Of a stretch of DNA of 22,736 nucleotides, positions 4,361 through 22,736 are shown piece by piece. Both the position numbers and the translations under genes were made by a program. Position 1 is the stretch's first letter. Every line of letters starts with the position of its first letter. This DNA comes from a virus: positions 1 through 22,736 of IMG/VR virus record IMGVR_UViG_3300038463_000049, one strand, 5' to 3'. The notes below the pieces were generated by a model. It ran no database searches, had not been told where the DNA came from, and saw nothing but the letters and a program-made list of their open reading frames with translations.

Positions 4361-7300
4361 ATGCCAAACGAAAAAGACTGGTCGGCCTCTACTCAATTAA
4401 ATGAGATGAAGAGGAATCCTCTCTTTAATCGTCTTCGCGCACAAAGTACAGTTGATACTGGTAGATACGGTAATCTCTCGCAAGACGTAAAAAACTATAC
4501 CCGAATGTCTGCTGGTAGAGAGCGGTTAAATAGTTTTAGTGCTAACAAAAAAGAATTATATTTACCTAGCGATAATATAGGTCCAGCAGTTAGTAGAAAT
4601 CAGCGTACTGGTGCATCCATGGGCACCAACTCCGAGTGGGCAATGCCTAAACTCCATGACCCATTTGAGTGGTTTAGAGAGAGATGTATTTTACCTGGAC
4701 AGTGGATGAGTTTGTTGGATGGTGCTAAAAAGGTTGAAGATGTAGTTTGTGGTGATAAAGCTTTGACACATATGGGTCGTTACCGTAGAGTTCTCGATAC
4801 AAAAACACAACAATATGACGGTAAGATTTATACAGTAACTCCTCAGTATAGATTTCCAGTTACTTTAACAGAGGGACATCCTTTTTGGACAAAAAGAAAT
4901 GATGTAATCGACTGGGTACATATTAATCATCTAAAGCGCGGAGATCTAGTTTTTGTTCCCGTGGATAATTCTATTGAAGACTATGAAGAAATATCTATAA
5001 TTGATTCTCTAAATGATGATGAATTTACTGTTAAAGATGGATATATTACACATCATAAATCTGGACAGTATAAGAATATTGGACGACCAATTAATAATCT
5101 TCCGATCTCAATCCCTGTTACGGAAGAATTGATGTGGCTCAGTGGTCTATATATTGCTGAGGGTTCATGCGGAAATCGTGATAAATCTCTTACCTTTTCT
5201 CTAAATAAAAATGAGACAGAATATGCAAATCAAATACTTGATTATGCAAAAAAAGTCTTCGATCTAGATGGGCATATCGATGATCGTTCACATATTGATA
5301 ATACAATCAATGTAATAATTACTAGTCAAGCATTAGTACAGTGGTTCAGAAATACATTTGGTTCTGGTGCATATAATAAGCATTTACCAGAATGGATGAT
5401 GCACCTTCCAGAGAATAAGCAGAAGGCACTTCTACGTGGTTACTTCGATGGAGATGGTTGTTACCAACCTGTCGAAAGTTCATTCTTCTCATCTTCAAAT
5501 GCTCTTACAGACCAACTTGTTCTTCTCTTAGAAAGAAATGGATTTTTCCCATCAATTTATAAACGTACAACTAAATCCTTCTCAAGTAATACAGAAGGCA
5601 AAAATGTAAATATTAATCGTTCTGATAACCCACGTTTTTTGCAGTGGCTTGGTGTTGATATTTTTGATAATGATCCAAAATTTATCGAAGAAAATATACG
5701 TCGTTTTCCAATTGAAAGAACGGATACAGGTTATTGGGTTCCTGTAAAATCAGTAGTTGAAGAAGATTATTCAGGGCCAATTTATAGTTTTACCATCACA
5801 GAAGACCATAGTTTTGTTGTCGAATCATTGGCGCAAAAAAATACATGGTGGTTCAACATGGAGGATCCCGACGAACAAACTCGAAAGATTCGTGACTGGG
5901 CAAGGTTAATTTACACCACTCACTATCTAGTTCCTTCAATGATCGATATCTATTCTCGATTCCCATTGCTGGGAATGGAATTTGCCCACCCTGATAAAAG
6001 AGTTAATGAATTTTTCTCAGAGTTGTTTTGGGATGGTTTACAGTATCAAGATTTTCTGTATTCATTAAGTCGTGAGCACTGGCTCATTGGTGATGTATTC
6101 GCACTTGGTTCATGGAATGATGGTATTGGTGCTTGGGAAGCTGATGAACTAATTAACCCCAATGATGTTGTTGTTGCCAAGAACAGAGCTCTGAGAACTT
6201 ATCAGTATCATATTAAAGTTCCAGAAGAAGTTAAAAAGTTAGTAGAGACTAGACAACCAGAAAAAGAATTTGCCATGCTTATGGCTATGTATCCTGACGT
6301 AGTAGAATACGCCAGAAAAGATGTTGAGATCCCTGTTTCAGATGTGATTATGAAGGGCATTCCCTATAAGTGTCTGGTAGCAGGAACTGATATGTTAACT
6401 CCAACTGGTCCACGTCCAGTTGAGGATCTTCAGATTGGTGATCCTGTTATAGCATGGGATATTACTGCAGACACTCCAGTTACTAGTTATGTAGAACATA
6501 ATTCTGTAAAAGAGGCTTCCCCCGTAGTAACAGTCACTACAAAGAAAGGCCGCACACTTACTTGTACTTTGGATCATCCTTTCTTAACACCAACCGGCAT
6601 GATAAATGCAATAGACTTATCACCAGGAGATAAAATACGTATAGGTACGTCTATTGATCTTAAGTCAAAAGAAGTGCCTGTAGATCTTGCTTATTTCTTG
6701 GGACTTATGGTAGGTGATGGATCTTATTATTCTCATTACTTTGAATTTCATAATGAAGAACAAGTCCTTATCGATTGGGTTGAAGAATTTGTTAAGCAAT
6801 ATGATTGTGTTCTACACAAGAAATTTAAGAGCAGTTTTGCTATCGTTAATGATGGAACTAATGGGAAAACCAAGTTTTCAACTGGATCGAATAACCTACG
6901 GAATCTTTTCCGTGACCTAGGTATATTTGGACAAAAATGTCAAGAGAAGAGAGTTCCCCAATTAATATGGGAAGGCTCAGAAGAGGCTAAATGGGCTTTT
7001 CTCTCTGGATATTTAGACTCTGATGGCTGTCTAGTTTCTCGTACTGACCAGAAATCACAGAAAACGTATAATGCTTATGATTGGGCAAGTTACAACCAGA
7101 AGTTGCTGGATGATACTCAGCTATTACTATCTGTTCTTGGTGTCCCAACCACCCGTAGTCCTCATCATATTAAAGTTGAATCTTATCAAGGTGTTGATAT
7201 TCTCCGGGAGAAGCTAACTCCATTGCTTCCTAGAAAACAACTAAAACAGATGTGGGACCAACAGGTTGTGTCTTCATCTGTTTTAGAGTGGGATACGATT

Positions 7301-9109
7301 AAAGAGATAAAAGTGGCTGGAGAGCAAGAAACTTATGCACTTTGTATCGCCGGGGCACACACACATGTTAGTGCTGGTTTAGTCACCAAAAATACCAACC
7401 CTTGGGCTGAACACGGTACTCCTCTTCTTATGAGGGCCTTCCGTCAGTTAATGATGGAAGAAAGTTTGCAAGCCAGTATGGAAGCAATCTCTGATAGATT
7501 GTATTCGCCACTTATTTTGGCAACACTAGGTTTACCTGATGCTGATGGAGATGGTCCTTGGATTCCTGATGCTGAGGAATTAGGTGCTTTGCGAGATGAC
7601 TTAGCAATGGCTATTAATGCTGACTTTAGATTAATGGTATATCATCACGGTCTAGAAATTCAGAATGCATTCGGTAGAGAATCTATGCCTCGATTGGATG
7701 ATGACTTCTACCGAATCCAGGCTAACTACATGATGGTTTTTGGTATTGGCTCTGAACTATTACAGGGTGGTAAGAGTGGTGCAACCTATGCTAGTGGTGC
7801 TCTTAACCGTGAACTAATTACACAGATGTTAACTACCCATCAACACCAAATTAAGCATTTTATCCAAGGTCGTATGCGAGCTGTTGCTGAACGTCAAGGA
7901 TTCTACGAATATCGTAATGTCGGTGGGCACCCAGTACCAATCATGGAAACTGTGTTAGTTGTTGATGAAGAAACTGGTGCTCAGTTCGTTGAAGAACGCC
8001 CAAAACTCGCTATCCCTGATATTATCTTCCAAAGTATGTCACTACAGGATGAAAATATTGAGCATCAATTCCTACAACAGTTAGCTGGTATGGGTCTTCC
8101 TGTTAGCTTTCAGACATTTACTCGAAATGCTGGTCTTGACTTTGAGGATGAAATAGAAACCGTTAAGAGAGAAAAGGTCGATCTAGTAATTGCAGAACAG
8201 CAAGTTAAGAAAGATATCTTTGATAGGTGCTTCCAATTACAACTACCTATTCCTATGGAATATCAAGCCGAGTATGAAGCGTACATTATGCAACTACAAG
8301 ATCCACAATTAGCTGAACAACTACGACCTGGTGCTATACAGGGTCTTGGTTCGCCTTCTCCTACTCCAAATATTGGTGGAACACCTGTTCATACTGATGT
8401 GAATGGTATTCCTAATATGTATCCATCTATTGCCAACCAAGAAACTCTAGATAGTTTGGGTACTCAAAAGAAGCATCCACCAGAATCTCATGAGCAAAAG
8501 AAGACACAACCGAAGCAATCTAAATCGGGTAAACCAAATGGTCCACAGAAGAAGACTGCCAGTATTGAAGATAATGAGATGGTAGTCACATCTAAAAAGA
8601 CTGGCGATGACATTATCATCGAAGAGGGTGCCATAGTATCTAATGTTGGTGAAGAAGGTGGAGAGTGGGGTAAGTATCGCAAGAGTAACCCCAAGCAGGC
8701 ATCAGTTACTGAAGAGTTTGATGGTGAACGAGAAATAACCTATGGAGATAGAATGAAGTTTTCTGTTCCATGGGAATCACAGTTTAGAACTCAAATGAAG
8801 TTAGCTAATGGTCAAAAAATCGTTGTTGATGATAATTACGAAAAATATGATGAAATTTATATGAAAGATCATATTGCAAAGATTTTAGAGTCTAACGTCG
8901 TTGGCCCAGAAGATAATGACTTCGATGACAAATTGAATGAAGACATCATCCCCACTAATATGGATTTCGATAAGCATAAGAGTGAAATGATGGGTTTTGA
9001 TAACAAAGCCATTACTGGAGTTAATACAGAGGATATGGGTCCTAAAGTTACATTCGGGTCACAAGAATTCCCAAATCGCAAAAAACCAGACGACACAAAA
9101 GATAAATAG
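4361..9109 (+). CDS. Portal protein precursor containing two inteins
   Basis: The 1582-aa precursor should mature to about 855 aa after excision of two inteins (residues 109-494 and 671-1011). Exteins are 1-108, 495-670 and 1012-1582. Portal identity rests on the joined extein: a PSMIDIYSRFPLLG segment and aromatic-rich region (about 525-590), then EHGTPLLMRAFRQLM, a helical stem-like region and FGIGSELLQGGKSGATYASG, followed by a long helical and charged C-terminal tail. It also rests on position just upstream of a prohead protease, scaffold-like and capsid genes. The portal forms the dodecameric DNA channel at one capsid vertex and docks the terminase and neck. Both junctions join without frame loss, giving ...WFRER+TWWFNM... 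and ...GIPYK+TNPWAEHG.... The start is leaderless behind a TATAAT. The last ~200 residues are polar and may be disordered. Confidence 0.88.
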   Translation: MPNEKDWSASTQLNEMKRNPLFNRLRAQSTVDTGRYGNLSQDVKNYTRMSAGRERLNSFSANKKELYLPSDNIGPAVSRNQRTGASMGTNSEWAMPKLHDPFEWFRERCILPGQWMSLLDGAKKVEDVVCGDKALTHMGRYRRVLDTKTQQYDGKIYTVTPQYRFPVTLTEGHPFWTKRNDVIDWVHINHLKRGDLVFVPVDNSIEDYEEISIIDSLNDDEFTVKDGYITHHKSGQYKNIGRPINNLPISIPVTEELMWLSGLYIAEGSCGNRDKSLTFSLNKNETEYANQILDYAKKVFDLDGHIDDRSHIDNTINVIITSQALVQWFRNTFGSGAYNKHLPEWMMHLPENKQKALLRGYFDGDGCYQPVESSFFSSSNALTDQLVLLLERNGFFPSIYKRTTKSFSSNTEGKNVNINRSDNPRFLQWLGVDIFDNDPKFIEENIRRFPIERTDTGYWVPVKSVVEEDYSGPIYSFTITEDHSFVVESLAQKNTWWFNMEDPDEQTRKIRDWARLIYTTHYLVPSMIDIYSRFPLLGMEFAHPDKRVNEFFSELFWDGLQYQDFLYSLSREHWLIGDVFALGSWNDGIGAWEADELINPNDVVVAKNRALRTYQYHIKVPEEVKKLVETRQPEKEFAMLMAMYPDVVEYARKDVEIPVSDVIMKGIPYKCLVAGTDMLTPTGPRPVEDLQIGDPVIAWDITADTPVTSYVEHNSVKEASPVVTVTTKKGRTLTCTLDHPFLTPTGMINAIDLSPGDKIRIGTSIDLKSKEVPVDLAYFLGLMVGDGSYYSHYFEFHNEEQVLIDWVEEFVKQYDCVLHKKFKSSFAIVNDGTNGKTKFSTGSNNLRNLFRDLGIFGQKCQEKRVPQLIWEGSEEAKWAFLSGYLDSDGCLVSRTDQKSQKTYNAYDWASYNQKLLDDTQLLLSVLGVPTTRSPHHIKVESYQGVDILREKLTPLLPRKQLKQMWDQQVVSSSVLEWDTIKEIKVAGEQETYALCIAGAHTHVSAGLVTKNTNPWAEHGTPLLMRAFRQLMMEESLQASMEAISDRLYSPLILATLGLPDADGDGPWIPDAEELGALRDDLAMAINADFRLMVYHHGLEIQNAFGRESMPRLDDDFYRIQANYMMVFGIGSELLQGGKSGATYASGALNRELITQMLTTHQHQIKHFIQGRMRAVAERQGFYEYRNVGGHPVPIMETVLVVDEETGAQFVEERPKLAIPDIIFQSMSLQDENIEHQFLQQLAGMGLPVSFQTFTRNAGLDFEDEIETVKREKVDLVIAEQQVKKDIFDRCFQLQLPIPMEYQAEYEAYIMQLQDPQLAEQLRPGAIQGLGSPSPTPNIGGTPVHTDVNGIPNMYPSIANQETLDSLGTQKKHPPESHEQKKTQPKQSKSGKPNGPQKKTASIEDNEMVVTSKKTGDDIIIEEGAIVSNVGEEGGEWGKYRKSNPKQASVTEEFDGEREITYGDRMKFSVPWESQFRTQMKLANGQKIVVDDNYEKYDEIYMKDHIAKILESNVVGPEDNDFDDKLNEDIIPTNMDFDKHKSEMMGFDNKAITGVNTEDMGPKVTFGSQEFPNRKKPDDTKDK
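4685..5842 (+). other. Intein 1 in portal, with LAGLIDADG endonuclease
   Basis: Precursor residues 109-494 (386 aa). The first residue is C109 (CILPGQWM), followed by a splicing block A-like segment with GDKALTH. TEGHPFW at 170-176 is block B with its TxxH. The endonuclease region shows two LAGLIDADG helices, LSGLYIAEG (260-268) and LLRGYFDGDG (357-366), each with an acidic residue, so cleavage activity is plausible. The C-terminal blocks read YSFTITEDHSFVVESLAQKN, ending at N494 with T495 as the +1 nucleophile. The penultimate residue is Lys rather than the common His. Boundaries are placed by motif and by restoration of a continuous portal sequence. Confidence 0.9.
6371..7393 (+). other. 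Intein 2 in portal, with LAGLIDADG endonuclease
   Basis: Precursor residues 671-1011 (341 aa). It starts at C671 with CLVAGTDMLTPTGPRPVEDL, a textbook block A. Block B is CTLDHPFLT (735-743). LAGLIDADG helices are FLGLMVGDGS (779-788) and FLSGYLDSDG (880-889), both with their acidic residues. The C-terminal blocks are ETYALCIAGAHTHVSAGLVTKN, ending at N1011 with T1012 as the +1 residue. As in intein 1, the penultimate residue is Lys. The two inteins differ in length and in endonuclease sequence, so they are not a simple recent duplication. Confidence 0.92.
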
Positions 9110-13125: not shown

Positions 13126-14115
13126 ATGCCATTCACTAAATCAGGCGCACGCGTTGCGGTAGGTTCAGATGATTATGTCGAGAAGATTCTAGGTGCTCAA
13201 GATCGCCTAGAGGAAACTACTGGTCGTAAGACCGCTTCTAAGGAAGCAAAGGAAGCTCGTCTAAGTCAGATCCTAGCCGACCGTTCAAACTACATGGTCC
13301 GTCTTGGCCAGGGTATGATTGGTCCTATCCAGTTGAAGCTTCGTTATCAGGGTCTAACCCGTAACGTTCTTCTGGAAGACCCACTTACACCTGGTGTCCC
13401 TGTCATGTACGATATTCTTGACGAATATGGTCAGGCCTATATCCTCAGTGGTTCTGAGGGAGAGGTTAAGGTAACACGATTCGAAGGTAAGAAAGTTCCC
13501 CTTCGGTTATATCGTATTGCCACCTTCCCTGAGATCAAAAAGGAAGACCTTTGGACCCTACGTGTCAACATTGTTGAGTATGCACAGGACATGTCCAAGC
13601 AGGCTATTATGATCCAAGAAGATGCCCGTACTATTACGGTTCTTCAGGCTGCTATCAATAACTACGCTGTTGACCCTAACCACACGGTTAGTCCTAACCA
13701 CATCGTTAATGAATTGAGTGGCTACGTTACGCCAGACTCATTGTTCGATGCTGTTGCATTGGTCGAGGTTCACCAGTTGGAGGCAAGTCGCTTGCTATTT
13801 AACCCAATTGACTACCGAGACCTCTACAAGTGGGACATCAACCAGACCGGTTGGGCCTTCAAGGACCGTGTTGTTGCTGGTGAGCGTATCGTTCAATTCG
13901 GTGGTTTCCAGGTTCAGCGTTCAATCGTTGTTCCTCAGGGTACCATCTATCTAACTCCATCTCCTGAGTTCCTTGGTGTAATGCCAGTTATGTACTCACT
14001 AGATGTGGAGGAGAACCACACTCCTGAGAAGTTCCTCAAGGGTTGGGTCATGGACGAATATATAAGCCAAGCGGTGTTGAACCCAAGAGGGCTCGCACAG
14101 ATCGTGAAATCGTAA
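13126..14115 (+). CDS. Major capsid protein
   Basis: This encodes 329 aa with a very strong purine ribosome-binding tract. Order and size fit an HK97-fold major capsid protein. An N-terminal helical, charged arm (about 1-55) is followed by a beta segment (QLKLRYQGLTRNVLLEDPLTPG) and an E-loop-like part with SGSEGEVKVTRFEGKKVPLRLY. A long helix with EYAQDMSKQAIMIQEDARTITVLQAAI and an A-domain end (VVPQGTIYLTPSPEFLGVMPVMYSLDV) complete it. It builds the icosahedral shell. Codons are visibly optimised compared with neighbours: about ten of a dozen Asn codons are AAC, Phe is mostly TTC and Lys mostly AAG, as expected for the most abundant protein. Its last residues, GLAQIVKS, are echoed in a relic 150 bases downstream. 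There is no cleavage-site evidence for the protease in the sequence itself. Confidence 0.85.
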   Translation: MPFTKSGARVAVGSDDYVEKILGAQDRLEETTGRKTASKEAKEARLSQILADRSNYMVRLGQGMIGPIQLKLRYQGLTRNVLLEDPLTPGVPVMYDILDEYGQAYILSGSEGEVKVTRFEGKKVPLRLYRIATFPEIKKEDLWTLRVNIVEYAQDMSKQAIMIQEDARTITVLQAAINNYAVDPNHTVSPNHIVNELSGYVTPDSLFDAVALVEVHQLEASRLLFNPIDYRDLYKWDINQTGWAFKDRVVAGERIVQFGGFQVQRSIVVPQGTIYLTPSPEFLGVMPVMYSLDVEENHTPEKFLKGWVMDEYISQAVLNPRGLAQIVKS

Positions 14116-14389: not shown

Positions 14390-15406
14390 GTGTTAACCGA
14401 TGAGACGTTCATCAAGAACAACAAAAAGCATGTAGTAGGTTTTTGCGATAATTGTGGAAAAAGATTCGATAGAGAACTTAGTTACGCCAATAAGATGCAA
14501 TACTGCTCTACCACGTGTATGGGCAAAGGACGCACTAAAAATGCGCTTAAAGACTATACCTGTGAAAATTGTACTAAACCTTTTCAGAGGCCAGTTAGTT
14601 TTGGCAAAAATAGATTTTGTTCACAGGATTGTTCAATAGAGTTCCAGGCAAATAAAAATAGAAAATTAATTACTTGTGCTAATACTGATTGTAATAAAAA
14701 ACTAGTTACTACGAATAGTAAATATTGTTCTAAAAAATGTAAAAATTCACATACAACCAAAAAATTTGTAAATTTAAAGTTAGATTTGAAGACCAAATTT
14801 TTGAAAAAGCCTAAAGATTACTACAAGAAATACCTTGATGAAAAGGGCCGTTATACGAATTGTGTTATATGCGAAAAAACACTAGATAAACCCTATGCCC
14901 AGAAACTCTTTTGTGACCGTAGGTGTAGAACTGTTGGTGGAGAATTAGGGATCAGATATACCCCAATTTTTATTGACAAAGAATGCTTAAGTTGTGGTAA
15001 GACATTCCAAGAAAGAATTGGAGAGACTAAATCCCACCAAAAGAAATATTGTACACATGATTGTTACTTGAAGGTTAACAAAAAAGCTGGAAAAAGATAT
15101 GTATCTTTGTTGGGTGAAGAAGCTGTTGTTTATCATTCTGGTTGGGAATTAAGATTTGCGGCAACATGTCTGCGCTTTGATATACCATGTCGTAGGTATG
15201 ATGGTGATCCTATTTCTACAACTGTTGGAGATTATTATCCAGATTTTATTGCTGGCGAAAATGATGATATCATTGAAATTAAAGGGTATTTAGACAAAAA
15301 GGCAGAAATAAAGATTAACACTGCTCATCAAATTTTTGGTGATCGTTATAAAATTCTATTAGAAGAAGATCTTAAAAGGTTTGAAGAAACAGGAGAATTA
15401 GTATGA
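14390..15406 (+). CDS. Five-zinc-finger PD-(D/E)XK nuclease, probable free-standing homing endonuclease
   Basis: This encodes 338 aa from a GTG with AAAGGA five bases upstream (14379-14384); there is no closer ATG. Five tandem C-x2-4-C...C-x3-C fingers are visible: C19/C22/C39/C43, C58/C61/C77/C81, C96/C101/C113/C117, C158/C161/C175/C179 and C199/C202/C221/C225. Most read YCS or FCS before the third ligand pair. The C-terminal ~95 residues are a nuclease: YHSGWELRFA (E253), YYPDF (D285) and EIKGY (E296, K298) give the D...ExK core found in VSR-like and phage homing nucleases. The finger array would supply DNA-site recognition. Low GC (about 23% in one 60-base sample within the finger region) contrasts with the capsid gene upstream. 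It overlaps the next gene by four bases (ATGA). Homing function is inferred from architecture, own promoter and the capsid-end relic beside it. Confidence 0.8.
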   Translation: MLTDETFIKNNKKHVVGFCDNCGKRFDRELSYANKMQYCSTTCMGKGRTKNALKDYTCENCTKPFQRPVSFGKNRFCSQDCSIEFQANKNRKLITCANTDCNKKLVTTNSKYCSKKCKNSHTTKKFVNLKLDLKTKFLKKPKDYYKKYLDEKGRYTNCVICEKTLDKPYAQKLFCDRRCRTVGGELGIRYTPIFIDKECLSCGKTFQERIGETKSHQKKYCTHDCYLKVNKKAGKRYVSLLGEEAVVYHSGWELRFAATCLRFDIPCRRYDGDPISTTVGDYYPDFIAGENDDIIEIKGYLDKKAEIKINTAHQIFGDRYKILLEEDLKRFEETGELV

Positions 15407-19726: not shown

Positions 19727-21019
19727 ATGGCAATTGAAACCCCTGCTAACGGAGTAGCAACTACACTAGCTTCAGGCATTACTAGTGGTGCTACTACTTG
19801 TTACCTTACGTCTGCAACAGGATTTACTAATAATCAATATCACTGTCTAATTACTGATAATGTCAACTTTGAAGTAGTAGAGTTTACTGGACTTTCTAGT
19901 AATCTTGCTACTATGCAACGTGCAGTCGAAACATATGGAGGATCAGCAACAGCATCTACCTTTGCTGCAGGATCGCAGATAATTGTGGTTACTAGTGTAC
20001 AGAGTGTTCAAAATATGATTTCTCAGTATAATGGTTCTGCAGGTAAGAATGTAATTATTAATGGTGGAATGGATATCTGGCAACGTGGAACTTCGTTCCC
20101 TCTGACGAACACTCAAATCTATACAGCCGACCGTTGGAGCACATCGGGAAGTGCAACCTCTATTGCAACTGTCTCGCAGGTTGCTGCCCCGGCACTTACC
20201 GGATTCGGAAAGGCGTTGCGAGTACAGCGCAACTCGGGAGCGTCGGCCACCGCGAATATATCAATTGGGCAGTCCTTAGAGTCGCTGAACTCGATACCAC
20301 TTGCCGGTCAGACGGTGACATTCTCGTTTTGGGCGCGGATTGGCGCAAACTTTTCGGGAGCAAGCAACGAAATCACGGCCTACCTTGTGTATGGGACTGG
20401 GATCGACCAAAACTTTCAGAATGGTAGTTACACAGGGCAAACGTCTATCGTTAATCAGAGTCCTGTACTTACAACGACGTGGCAGTATTTTTCGTATTCA
20501 GGAGTCGTTGGTGCAACCGCGACGGAGTTGGCGTTAGAGTTCTACTACGGACCAGTTGGCACCGCTGGGGCAAACGACTACTTCGATATCACGGGTGTGC
20601 AACTGGAACTCGGTAATACGGCTTCTATATTCTCTCGTGCAGGTGGTGACATACAAGGTGAATTAGCGAAATGTCAACGTTACTGTTATGAAATGAATAG
20701 TGCACAAGCAAGTGATGGTTACGCTATATATAGCGGAAGTGTTCAGTGTATTGCGACTACTAATGCACTTGCTATTATTACTTTTCCAACAACTATGCGA
20801 ATAGCGCCATCTTTCACATCATCAGTGGCAACAGGATTAACTACACAATCAGCCAACGGAACAGGAGCTGCTCTATCGGCTATTGCCCTGGACAGAAGTA
20901 CGCCTAACAATGCAGAACTAACCTTAACTTGTGCTGCTGTATTAGTTGCTGGAAATAGTTCTCTTTTGTTTTCAAATGGCAACAACACATCCTATTTAGC
21001 ATTTTCTGCAGAACTCTAA
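19727..21019 (+). CDS. Tail fibre-type protein with N-G-x-M...DRW adhesin domain
   Basis: This encodes 430 aa with AAAGGA five bases upstream. Residues about 18-90 form the tail module also seen in neighbours (TSGATTCYLTSATGF, NFEVVEFTG, MQRAVETYGG). Residues about 108-305 match a domain widespread in phage fibres: NVIINGGMDIWQRGTS, YTADRW, GQTVTFSFWAR, DYFDITGVQLELGNTAS and then ELAKCQRYCYE. It is thought to be a carbohydrate-binding-type beta sandwich. The C-terminal ~110 residues are a further beta domain. It probably binds the host surface. Bases about 20090-20620 are 53-58% GC in sampled 60-base lines, against about one third in the following gene, so the adhesin core looks recently acquired. 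Confidence 0.8.
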   Translation: MAIETPANGVATTLASGITSGATTCYLTSATGFTNNQYHCLITDNVNFEVVEFTGLSSNLATMQRAVETYGGSATASTFAAGSQIIVVTSVQSVQNMISQYNGSAGKNVIINGGMDIWQRGTSFPLTNTQIYTADRWSTSGSATSIATVSQVAAPALTGFGKALRVQRNSGASATANISIGQSLESLNSIPLAGQTVTFSFWARIGANFSGASNEITAYLVYGTGIDQNFQNGSYTGQTSIVNQSPVLTTTWQYFSYSGVVGATATELALEFYYGPVGTAGANDYFDITGVQLELGNTASIFSRAGGDIQGELAKCQRYCYEMNSAQASDGYAIYSGSVQCIATTNALAIITFPTTMRIAPSFTSSVATGLTTQSANGTGAALSAIALDRSTPNNAELTLTCAAVLVAGNSSLLFSNGNNTSYLAFSAEL

Positions 21020-21029
21020 AGGATAATAA

Positions 21030-22322
21030 ATGTCTAGATCGCCATATGCATTAAACTCATACACTGGTGGTGCTACCTATGCAACTATTGTGGCAACAGG
21101 TATTGGTGCTGCTGACACTACTATAACTATTACTGGTACTAATGCAAGTTGGAGTCCTTTAGGTACTGCAGGGGGTTGGTACCTAGCATTAGACTATGGA
21201 ACTTCTGCAGAAGAGAAGATCTTCGTTCCTTCAGGATCTTGGACATACTCTAACACTGGTGTTTCATTAGTAGGAGTTACTCGGGGAATTGATGGAACTA
21301 CTGGGGTAATTCATCCCGCAGGATCATTTGTAGCACCGGTTATTACTTCTATTGATACTTTTGAAGCTAATGAATTAGTATCTCAAAACCTTGGTAACTT
21401 TATAGTTCGTAGTGCTACAGCTACTTGTACTCCAGGAGAATGGACTGTATTTTCAGGAACTACTGCTGCACAAACTCTAAGTTTACCTTCAGGGGTTATT
21501 AACCAAACTGATAACCAGATATCTAACTACTCTACTGTTGGATTAACTATTGCTTCAGGTTCTAATGCAAAACTTAACAACTATGGAGTTTTGGGTAATG
21601 TAATTATTCCCCCTAATGCTTCATATACTTTTACCTATGAACCTACCAATACTACTTGGTACACAACTGGTACTAATACTCCTACTGCTTATGTAGGGAG
21701 CGGTCTAGCAGGACAGCATCTAACCCCTTCAGGGGCTATAGCTGGACAATTATCTTGGGCTATGCCTACTAGTTATGATATGCCTGCAACCTATCTAAGT
21801 CCCTATAATGCATGGAACTTAGACCCAGGGGTAAATATTGGTAGTGCTGCTGTTCTTGTTACTGGCACTTTATATTATAATGCTATTTGGATTCCTACTG
21901 CTATGACTCTTAGTGGTATATCATTTTACCCTACTACTTTTGCAGCTACTGACACTGCCTATATAGGTTTCTTTAACTCAACTACTCAATTAGCAGTATG
22001 TTCAGGTATTATCGGTGGTACAACTAACGCATTAGTTAAAACTCTTATTTCTGGTGGTACCTATAATATTTCCTCTCCTGGACTTTATTACATTGGAATA
22101 GTAATTTCTGGATCGAGTGCCACCTCCTTTGGAGGCAACGTACTTACTATTCCCTCTTTATATAATTTAGGAGTAGGCAATCAAACAAATTCGGTCACAG
22201 GGTTAAGATTAGGCACTGTAGTTATAGGTAACAGAGCATTATATGCTAATAATGCAACCATTAGCGGCATAATACAGAGCGCTCCATCACCAGGCCCAGT
22301 TCTTTTCTTTGCGCTATCATAG
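21030..22322 (+). CDS. Tail fibre-type protein
   Basis: This encodes 430 aa with AAAGGA upstream, ten bases after the previous stop. Residues 1-105 are the shared tail module: YALNSYTGGATYATIV, DTTITITG, LDYGTSAEEKIFV, then VTRGIDGTTGVIHPAGS, the most complete RG..GT..H..G form in the window. Residues about 115-225 contain a strand-rich domain with TLSLPSG and IPPNASYTFTYEPTNTTWY, resembling spike or stalk segments. The C-terminal ~190 residues form another beta domain (GTLYYNAIWIPTAMTLSGISFYPTTF, GLYYIGIVISGS), likely a receptor-binding or capping head. The gene is AT-rich throughout. Confidence 0.7.
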   Translation: MSRSPYALNSYTGGATYATIVATGIGAADTTITITGTNASWSPLGTAGGWYLALDYGTSAEEKIFVPSGSWTYSNTGVSLVGVTRGIDGTTGVIHPAGSFVAPVITSIDTFEANELVSQNLGNFIVRSATATCTPGEWTVFSGTTAAQTLSLPSGVINQTDNQISNYSTVGLTIASGSNAKLNNYGVLGNVIIPPNASYTFTYEPTNTTWYTTGTNTPTAYVGSGLAGQHLTPSGAIAGQLSWAMPTSYDMPATYLSPYNAWNLDPGVNIGSAAVLVTGTLYYNAIWIPTAMTLSGISFYPTTFAATDTAYIGFFNSTTQLAVCSGIIGGTTNALVKTLISGGTYNISSPGLYYIGIVISGSSATSFGGNVLTIPSLYNLGVGNQTNSVTGLRLGTVVIGNRALYANNATISGIIQSAPSPGPVLFFALS

Positions 22323-22333
22323 AATAGCCACTA

Positions 22334-22736
22334 ATGGCGACACCTCTAGATAGACATCCTTGGACTGAATCCACCCAGGCATATTATGGTGGTACAGAGT
22401 CATACTATCCAGTACTCTTTCCCACTATTTCGGGATTTAATGCTTCTTTCTTAATTCCTGCCTATCAATATCCTACTTTAGGGATTTGGCCTCAACTCTA
22501 TATAACTCCACCTATAGGAACTACGGGCTATGTTATTGTTGACATTGCTAGTGGAACTCTCCCCACAGTAGACCCCAACTATACTTCTGCAATTGCTAGA
22601 GCTCAAAATGCAGGTTGGACTTGTTTAGGTTATGTTGATACCAACTATACTGCAGTAGTTTCAGGACAAGTAGAAAACTTAGTACATGACTGGTTCACAG
22701 TTTATGGGATTAAGAATATTTTCTTTGATCGTGCAG
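22334..22736 (+). CDS. Spherulin-4-like (GH135-type) tail protein, 3' partial
   Basis: This is open from an ATG 11 bases after the previous stop to the window end (134 complete codons, no stop). After a short arm, residues about 40-134 read FLIPAYQYPTLGIW, YVIVDIASG, DPNYTSAIARAQNAGWTCLGYVDTNY and WFTVYGIKNIFFDRA. This is the pattern of Spherulin-4 family domains: a TIM-barrel strand order with conserved DPNY, GYVDT and FFD acids. Family members include fungal Sph3 (GH135), which cleaves galactosaminogalactan. Here it would be a virion-associated polysaccharide-degrading or -binding protein. Activity is not shown by sequence; the C-terminal half is outside the window. No ribosome-binding site is evident. 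Confidence 0.7.
   Translation, partial: MATPLDRHPWTESTQAYYGGTESYYPVLFPTISGFNASFLIPAYQYPTLGIWPQLYITPPIGTTGYVIVDIASGTLPTVDPNYTSAIARAQNAGWTCLGYVDTNYTAVVSGQVENLVHDWFTVYGIKNIFFDRA

Follow-up and report, generated by a model that had tools for sequence, protein, structure and literature searches.

A Spherulin-4/GH135-type barrel on a probable phage tail fibre, a putative exopolysaccharide depolymerase

Phage virions are known to carry exopolysaccharide depolymerases on their tail spikes and fibres, and these enzymes are mostly beta-helix lyases or hydrolases, with a fold unlike the Spherulin-4 barrel considered here. For that barrel the closest solved structures are those of Sph3 (GH135; 5c5g and 5d6t), an endo-alpha-1,4-N-acetylgalactosaminidase of Aspergillus, which is a membrane-bound biosynthetic enzyme. 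According to the available text of PMC12054363, which also gives the roles of the catalytic Asp/Glu pair, GH135 and GH166 enzymes are retaining alpha-N-acetylgalactosaminidases. Pel, as summarised in PMC9135694, is an alpha-1,4-linked GalN/GalNAc polymer, and pel loci are present in actinobacteria according to the summary of PMC7112168. Among viruses, spherulation-specific proteins encoded by three Atacama viral genomes have been taken, in the excerpted text of PMC8269230, as the products of sporulation-related auxiliary genes. In the literature that we searched, mostly non-subscription and largely at summary level, we found no description of this domain as a phage depolymerase.

The stretch of DNA analysed here, which we call the window, is the complete IMG/VR record IMGVR_UViG_3300038463_000049, 22,736 nucleotides long. 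On its plus strand, an open reading frame starting with an ATG at 22334 is still open at the window end (22334..22736, 134 residues) and represents the 5' part of a probable fibre gene with a Spherulin-4 (PF12138/GH135-like) domain. A longer contig, IMGVR_UViG_3300034065_000086 (57,949 bases), includes the whole window sequence at 100% identity and carries the gene on to 334 codons, with the frame still open. The initial annotation had proposed a Spherulin-4/GH135-like domain from the letters of the window, together with an extension of the gene and a profile search among the ways to check it, and both bear the proposal out: the window fragment matches PF12138 (Spherulin4) at 44.9 bits (E=1.3e-11; residues 39-133, 22448..22732 on the plus strand, profile positions 2-104 of 239), and the complete domain in the longer copy matches it at 98.3 bits (E=6.4e-28; residues 39-251, profile positions 2-234), both above the curated cut-off of 30.2 bits. 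Chance similarity is ruled out by the Pfam score together with shuffled controls; a profile of seven distant rows, which lacked the window row and its four nearest, gave 90.0 bits for the true fragment, -0.8 bits for the reversed one and 8.3 bits for the best of 1000 shuffles, of which 908 passed the reporting limit. For the longer copy no Pfam family other than Spherulin4 was reported, the domain protein had no match in PHROGs or NCBIfam at E 0.01, and PF12138 was found in 0 of 14 control genomes. Against solved structures, phmmer with the single sequence had just two matches up to E=10, both of them chains of Sph3 (5c5g and 5d6t, E about 8e-8), and the alignment profile returned the Sph3 chains at E about 1e-31, with the remaining five rows at 0.55 or above. 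The motifs on which the proposal had rested are also present, all on the plus strand: DPNY (22571..22582, residues 80-83), GYVDT (22628..22642, residues 99-103) and FFD (22721..22729), the last extending to FFDR (22721..22732). Across a 12-row alignment, made of 11 rows from viral contigs and one from a viral-looking contig of a metagenome-assembled genome (MAG), G99, Y100, V101, T103 and D132 are invariant; conservation of DPNY is incomplete, the motif being variable in the family.

The model predicted from a 12-row alignment (mean pLDDT 73.2, pTM 0.71) is a (beta/alpha)8 barrel of the kind expected for GH135, as a prediction and not a solved structure. Its residues 41-250 have pLDDT of 71-96 as means of ten-residue blocks, and residues 1-34 and 252-291 are unreliable. 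Closest to the model is Sph3 (5d6t, Z 25.2, rmsd 2.4 over 221 residues, 23% identity; 5c5g also about 25), clearly ahead of the other barrels listed, and among these the concern that the complete sequence might match another barrel family is not borne out. The next structures among the matches listed are GH191 enzymes (Z up to 15.5), a GH18 chitinase (14.4) and PelA of GH166 (13.4-14.2); these three families were considered as a home for the domain and rejected on these scores. A GH114 entry is absent from the best 50 structural matches, a listing that by itself does not exclude GH114.

The window phage can be placed by its major head protein (13126..14115, plus strand; phrog_2522, E=1.3e-102), which is 60% identical to that of Rhodococcus phage E3 and 59% identical to those of Mycobacterium phage Myrna and Gordonia phage Stormageddon. 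Of the 216 phage records that it matches, 211 take their names from Mycobacterium, Mycolicibacterium, Gordonia, Rhodococcus or Eggerthella. As judged from this sequence, the phage resembles, and appears to stand near, actinobacterial myoviruses, and its host is probably an actinobacterium. Directly upstream of the Spherulin-4 gene lies a 430-aa protein with an N-terminal virion-structural match (21030..22322, plus strand; phrog_23837, E=9.3e-11), preceded by another 430-aa protein that matches a tail fiber family over the C-terminal part of that family (19727..21019, plus strand; phrog_4492, E=2.3e-44). These two matches, the tail genes on a second contig and the tail-domain fusions of relatives, both described below, support the tail module in which the domain had initially been placed, and we regard a Spherulin-4/GH135 barrel on a probable tail fibre as well supported.

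Elsewhere in the window, the portal protein (4361..9109, plus strand; Pfam and PHROG matches) carries intein and homing-endonuclease segments; its ORF of 1582 aa has two Intein_splicing and three LAGLIDADG_3 stretches, with the portal matches in two stretches, and probably holds two inteins. Just past the head gene, a Cys-rich ORF of 338 aa (14390-15406) has, by eye only, the look of a homing-type zinc-ribbon endonuclease.

The probable course of the gene beyond its 334 codons is suggested by a second contig. IMGVR_UViG_3300034065_000086 ends within a 54-base tandem repeat, and IMGVR_UViG_3300038463_000081 begins in the same repeat, the two overlapping at 127 of 127 bases, all of which are repeat. 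On the second contig the frame continues for 939 residues, first with YVTN-type propeller repeats (TIGR02276; Lactonase PF10282) and then with a cationic region (positions 1261-2700 of that contig; 480 residues, 103 Lys/Arg versus 8 Asp/Glu) that has a period of 18 residues (autocorrelation 0.42 versus 0.16, the 99th percentile of the maxima of 500 shuffles). For a portion of the cationic repeats the single-sequence model is unreliable (pTM 0.23), and the other four models have mean pLDDT of 24.5-41.8. On the 3' side of the continuation follow an NlpC/P60 gene and then sheath, tape-measure and minor-tail genes. Probably, the two contigs hold one gene, running from barrel through propeller to cationic region and joined only through the repeat, and IMGVR_UViG_3300038463_000081 probably continues the genome of the window phage. 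When queried with the propeller region, the viral contigs returned only its own contig and the phages collection returned no match; a scan with an 18-residue-repeat peptide returned the two known contigs only, with no repeat-spanning contig. If the join is true, the Spherulin-4 gene lies in the stretch that corresponds to the interval between head protein and sheath in phage E3, where lipase, cutinase, tail fibre, endolysin and Hep_Hag genes are found. A probable NUMOD3 homing endonuclease (5470-6372 of IMGVR_UViG_3300038463_000081) sits between the NlpC/P60 and sheath genes.

We found the domain in 12 viral records, namely ten IMG/VR contigs (including IMGVR_UViG_3300034065_000086, which contains the window sequence), Virus Rctr41k and Rothia phage Spartoi, the last a single phage with two accessions. 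From the phages collection, five queries with the domain drew only Rctr41k and Spartoi; the kin of the window phage among the phages of Mycobacterium, Gordonia and Rhodococcus were absent from the results, so that its nearest cultured relatives appear to be without a parallel. A tblastn search with the window domain missed Spartoi, and distant copies may therefore be overlooked; the 134-aa fragment had no match in the phages collection at E 0.01, and the Rctr41k domain alone returned no relative in the viral contigs. Several of these relatives have tail features of their own. One (L014) carries a C-terminal Peptidase_S74 chaperone and another (L015) Phage_tail_C, both passing the Pfam cut-off, and L015 and L013 have collagen-like stretches that fall short of it; in L020, a minor-tail protein encoded downstream of a tape measure gene carries two domains as a fusion; and Spartoi gp21 is preceded by four minor tail proteins (gp15-18) and followed by lysin A (gp26). 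The scan of genome contigs gave a single locus, QMIW01000141.1 (L016) of a Chloroflexi MAG; the protein it encodes is identical to the C-terminal end of that of Rctr41k, so the contig is probably viral and came into the MAG by binning. Within Chloroflexota the family is sparse, with a match in 6 of 301 genomes, four of them above the cut-off, one of these four being the Rctr41k-like contig. Automatic annotation already knows of the domain in phages, since the matches in the viral structure library include several that bear the name 'Spherulation-specific family 4' and one called 'Tip attachment protein J'. In a tree of 26 rows (L032 was dropped for its length), the window domain is placed together with the four from contig IMGVR_UViG_3300048824_000013 (support 100/99) and next with L010 (88/91). 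Phage and cellular labels change at least 5 times on this tree (shuffle average 9.0; 3 of 500 as low), the deep branches are without resolution, and the starred branches are compatible with a single origin.

As to the substrate, bacterial members of the family offer a pointer. On a Kocuria rosea plasmid the Spherulin-4 gene lies downstream of pelF with one gene between, on a Streptomyces californicus plasmid it lies downstream of pelF with four genes between, and both members stand directly before an endo-alpha-1,4-polygalactosaminidase gene. Taken with the chemistry of Pel and the activity of GH135, as far as the sources summarised at the outset describe them, these neighbourhoods make a Pel-/GAG-like exopolysaccharide our best guess for the substrate. 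The domain is acidic (net charge -13 over residues 1-250), which would suit a cationic polymer. The protein could instead be a virion glycosidase with some other glycan as its target, for example envelope polymers that bear galactosamine or a different exopolysaccharide; identity to Sph3 is only 23%, and the lipase and cutinase genes between head and sheath of phage E3 point to envelope degradation in that interval. Against this stand the pelF and polygalactosaminidase neighbours of the bacterial members and a fold that is nearest to GH135 and then to GH191 enzymes, and we consider the other glycans unlikely, though worth keeping in mind.

In the longer copy, D132 (22727..22729) and E184, the latter beyond the window, align with the nucleophile and the acid/base of Sph3; the complete domain thus keeps the Asp and Glu of GH135 enzymes, and the worry that the full sequence might lack the catalytic acids can be set aside. 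In Sph3, the Glu aligned to E184 comes 56 residues after the Asp aligned to D132. We take the Sph3 nucleophile to be Asp166, which with Glu222 fits this spacing, and Glu167, directly after the nucleophile, to be the third acid of the active site. In the available text of PMC12054363 the nucleophile is printed as Asp196, with Glu222, and this is probably a misprint, the spacing to Glu222 pointing to Asp166. In the window protein R133 (22730..22732) takes the place of the Glu that follows the Sph3 nucleophile, so that the third-acid feature of the Sph3 type, which does not define the family, is lacking. The comparison covered 27 domain sequences, of which phage or viral records supplied 13 and cellular records 14, L030 and L032 being weak partial members; left out were L031 (a fragment that failed the motif filter), the duplicates L008, L016 and L020, and, with 10 of 12 plasmid records used, two further Streptomyces californicus records. 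The nucleophile column is D in 27/27, and the acid/base column is E in 23/27 and D in two; of the other two rows, L030 has H, with a Glu in the column just before, and L032 a gap. At the site that follows the nucleophile, 11 sequences have E, 9 have R and 7 have Q (4 E, 6 R and 3 Q among phages; 7 E, 3 R and 4 Q among cellular members), the three cellular R rows being two near-identical copies from Streptomyces californicus and one from Kocuria rosea. Because Arg is common at this site, in cellular members as well, Arg133 reads as a common variant and not by itself as a sign of decay. A dead enzyme deduced from Arg133 alone was not accepted, since Arg is also found in three bacterial members, but it keeps a low probability.

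Contig IMGVR_UViG_3300048824_000013 carries four domains in two ORFs whose active-site letters differ (DR/E, DE/E, DQ/D and DR/D) and which supply both acid/base Asp copies; given these Asp-for-Glu changes and Arg133, some phage copies may bind and not cut. Extended to the window protein, this would make the barrel a catalytically dead or very weak carbohydrate-binding module, the receptor-binding part of a fibre that holds alpha-GalNAc polymers uncut, and Arg133 in place of Glu, the two Asp copies and the diversified fourfold contig would all fit. The nucleophile and the acid/base Glu are nevertheless kept at the frequencies given above, and, of the three bacterial members with Arg, two of them near-identical, the two whose loci were viewed more widely have pelF and polygalactosaminidase genes there; binding without cutting is, in our view, doubtful and on balance quite improbable. 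Very improbable indeed is an auxiliary gene for host sporulation or stress tolerance, as proposed for the Atacama soil viruses: the family name derives from spherulation and three viral members are so interpreted in the excerpted text of PMC8269230, but the domain lies among virion genes here and is fused to tail modules in relatives, the characterised family member is a glycoside hydrolase according to the available part of PMC12054363, and the proteins of PMC8269230, which average 1,265 aa, would by inference be of a length that suits a fibre.

We therefore return to the reading we prefer, a virion depolymerase for an alpha-GalNAc (Pel-like) exopolysaccharide, carried by a tail protein of an actinobacterial myovirus, to which as a whole we give a probability of roughly 0.65. 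The family, the catalytic pair, the position among structural genes and the tail fusions of relatives, as read from sequence, and the barrel as predicted, are consistent with it, and the putative use as an exopolysaccharide depolymerase is likely. The gene product would be a tail-fibre or tail-appendage protein, presumably present in the virion, with a Spherulin-4/GH135-type TIM barrel as its N-terminal domain. If the barrel is catalytically active, it would be a retaining hydrolase that uses D132 as nucleophile and E184 as acid/base, and its target would be an exopolysaccharide with alpha-linked GalNAc/GalN, of Pel- or galactosaminogalactan-like type; such hydrolysis around the cell of the presumed actinobacterial host would open a path for the tail to the envelope.

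More tentatively, with odds that we put a little short of even, Spherulin-4/GH135 barrels might form a widespread and unrecognised class of virion depolymerases, shuffled among tail architectures in up to four copies per contig with diversified active sites, and acting on Pel-like alpha-GalNAc exopolysaccharides chiefly of actinobacteria, the published viral sporulation genes included. The depolymerase reading, if true, would add an enzyme family to the phage depolymerases, with a predicted substrate (Pel-like galactosamine exopolysaccharide), in phages of actinobacteria, whose phage-accessible surface glycans are, to our knowledge, less studied. It would also offer an alternative reading of viral genes published as sporulation helpers. 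Since the isolated Rothia phage Spartoi carries the domain, the idea is testable in a cultured phage.

Set beside the known systems, the window domain shares with Sph3 its Pfam family, the predicted barrel (Z 25) and the Asp/Glu pair, and differs in the Arg that replaces the Glu beside the nucleophile, in sequence (23% identity) and in its setting, a phage structural protein where Sph3 is a membrane-bound biosynthetic enzyme. PelA (GH166) and the GH114 and GH191 endo-galactosaminidases are, in the available text of PMC12054363, related barrels with an Asp/Glu pair that act on galactosamine polymers; PelA and the GH191 enzymes have the lower structural similarity to our model given above for the matches listed. 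The Atacama viral proteins, likened here by description and not by sequence, bear the same family name, are large and have their nearest relatives in Actinobacteria as far as PMC8269230 is available; they are interpreted there as products of sporulation auxiliary genes, and the tail context seen here suggests a different role for them. Rothia phage Spartoi gp21 (YP_010755497.1, annotated as hypothetical) is alike in its PF12138 match (E=1.7e-35), its tail cassette and its actinobacterial phage, and unlike in being shorter (362 aa), in having Glu beside the nucleophile and in belonging to a much smaller phage of 35 kb. The virion exopolysaccharide depolymerases of tail spikes and fibres, for all the difference in fold, are alike in the proposed role and in the modular tail setting, down to the S74 chaperone found in L014.
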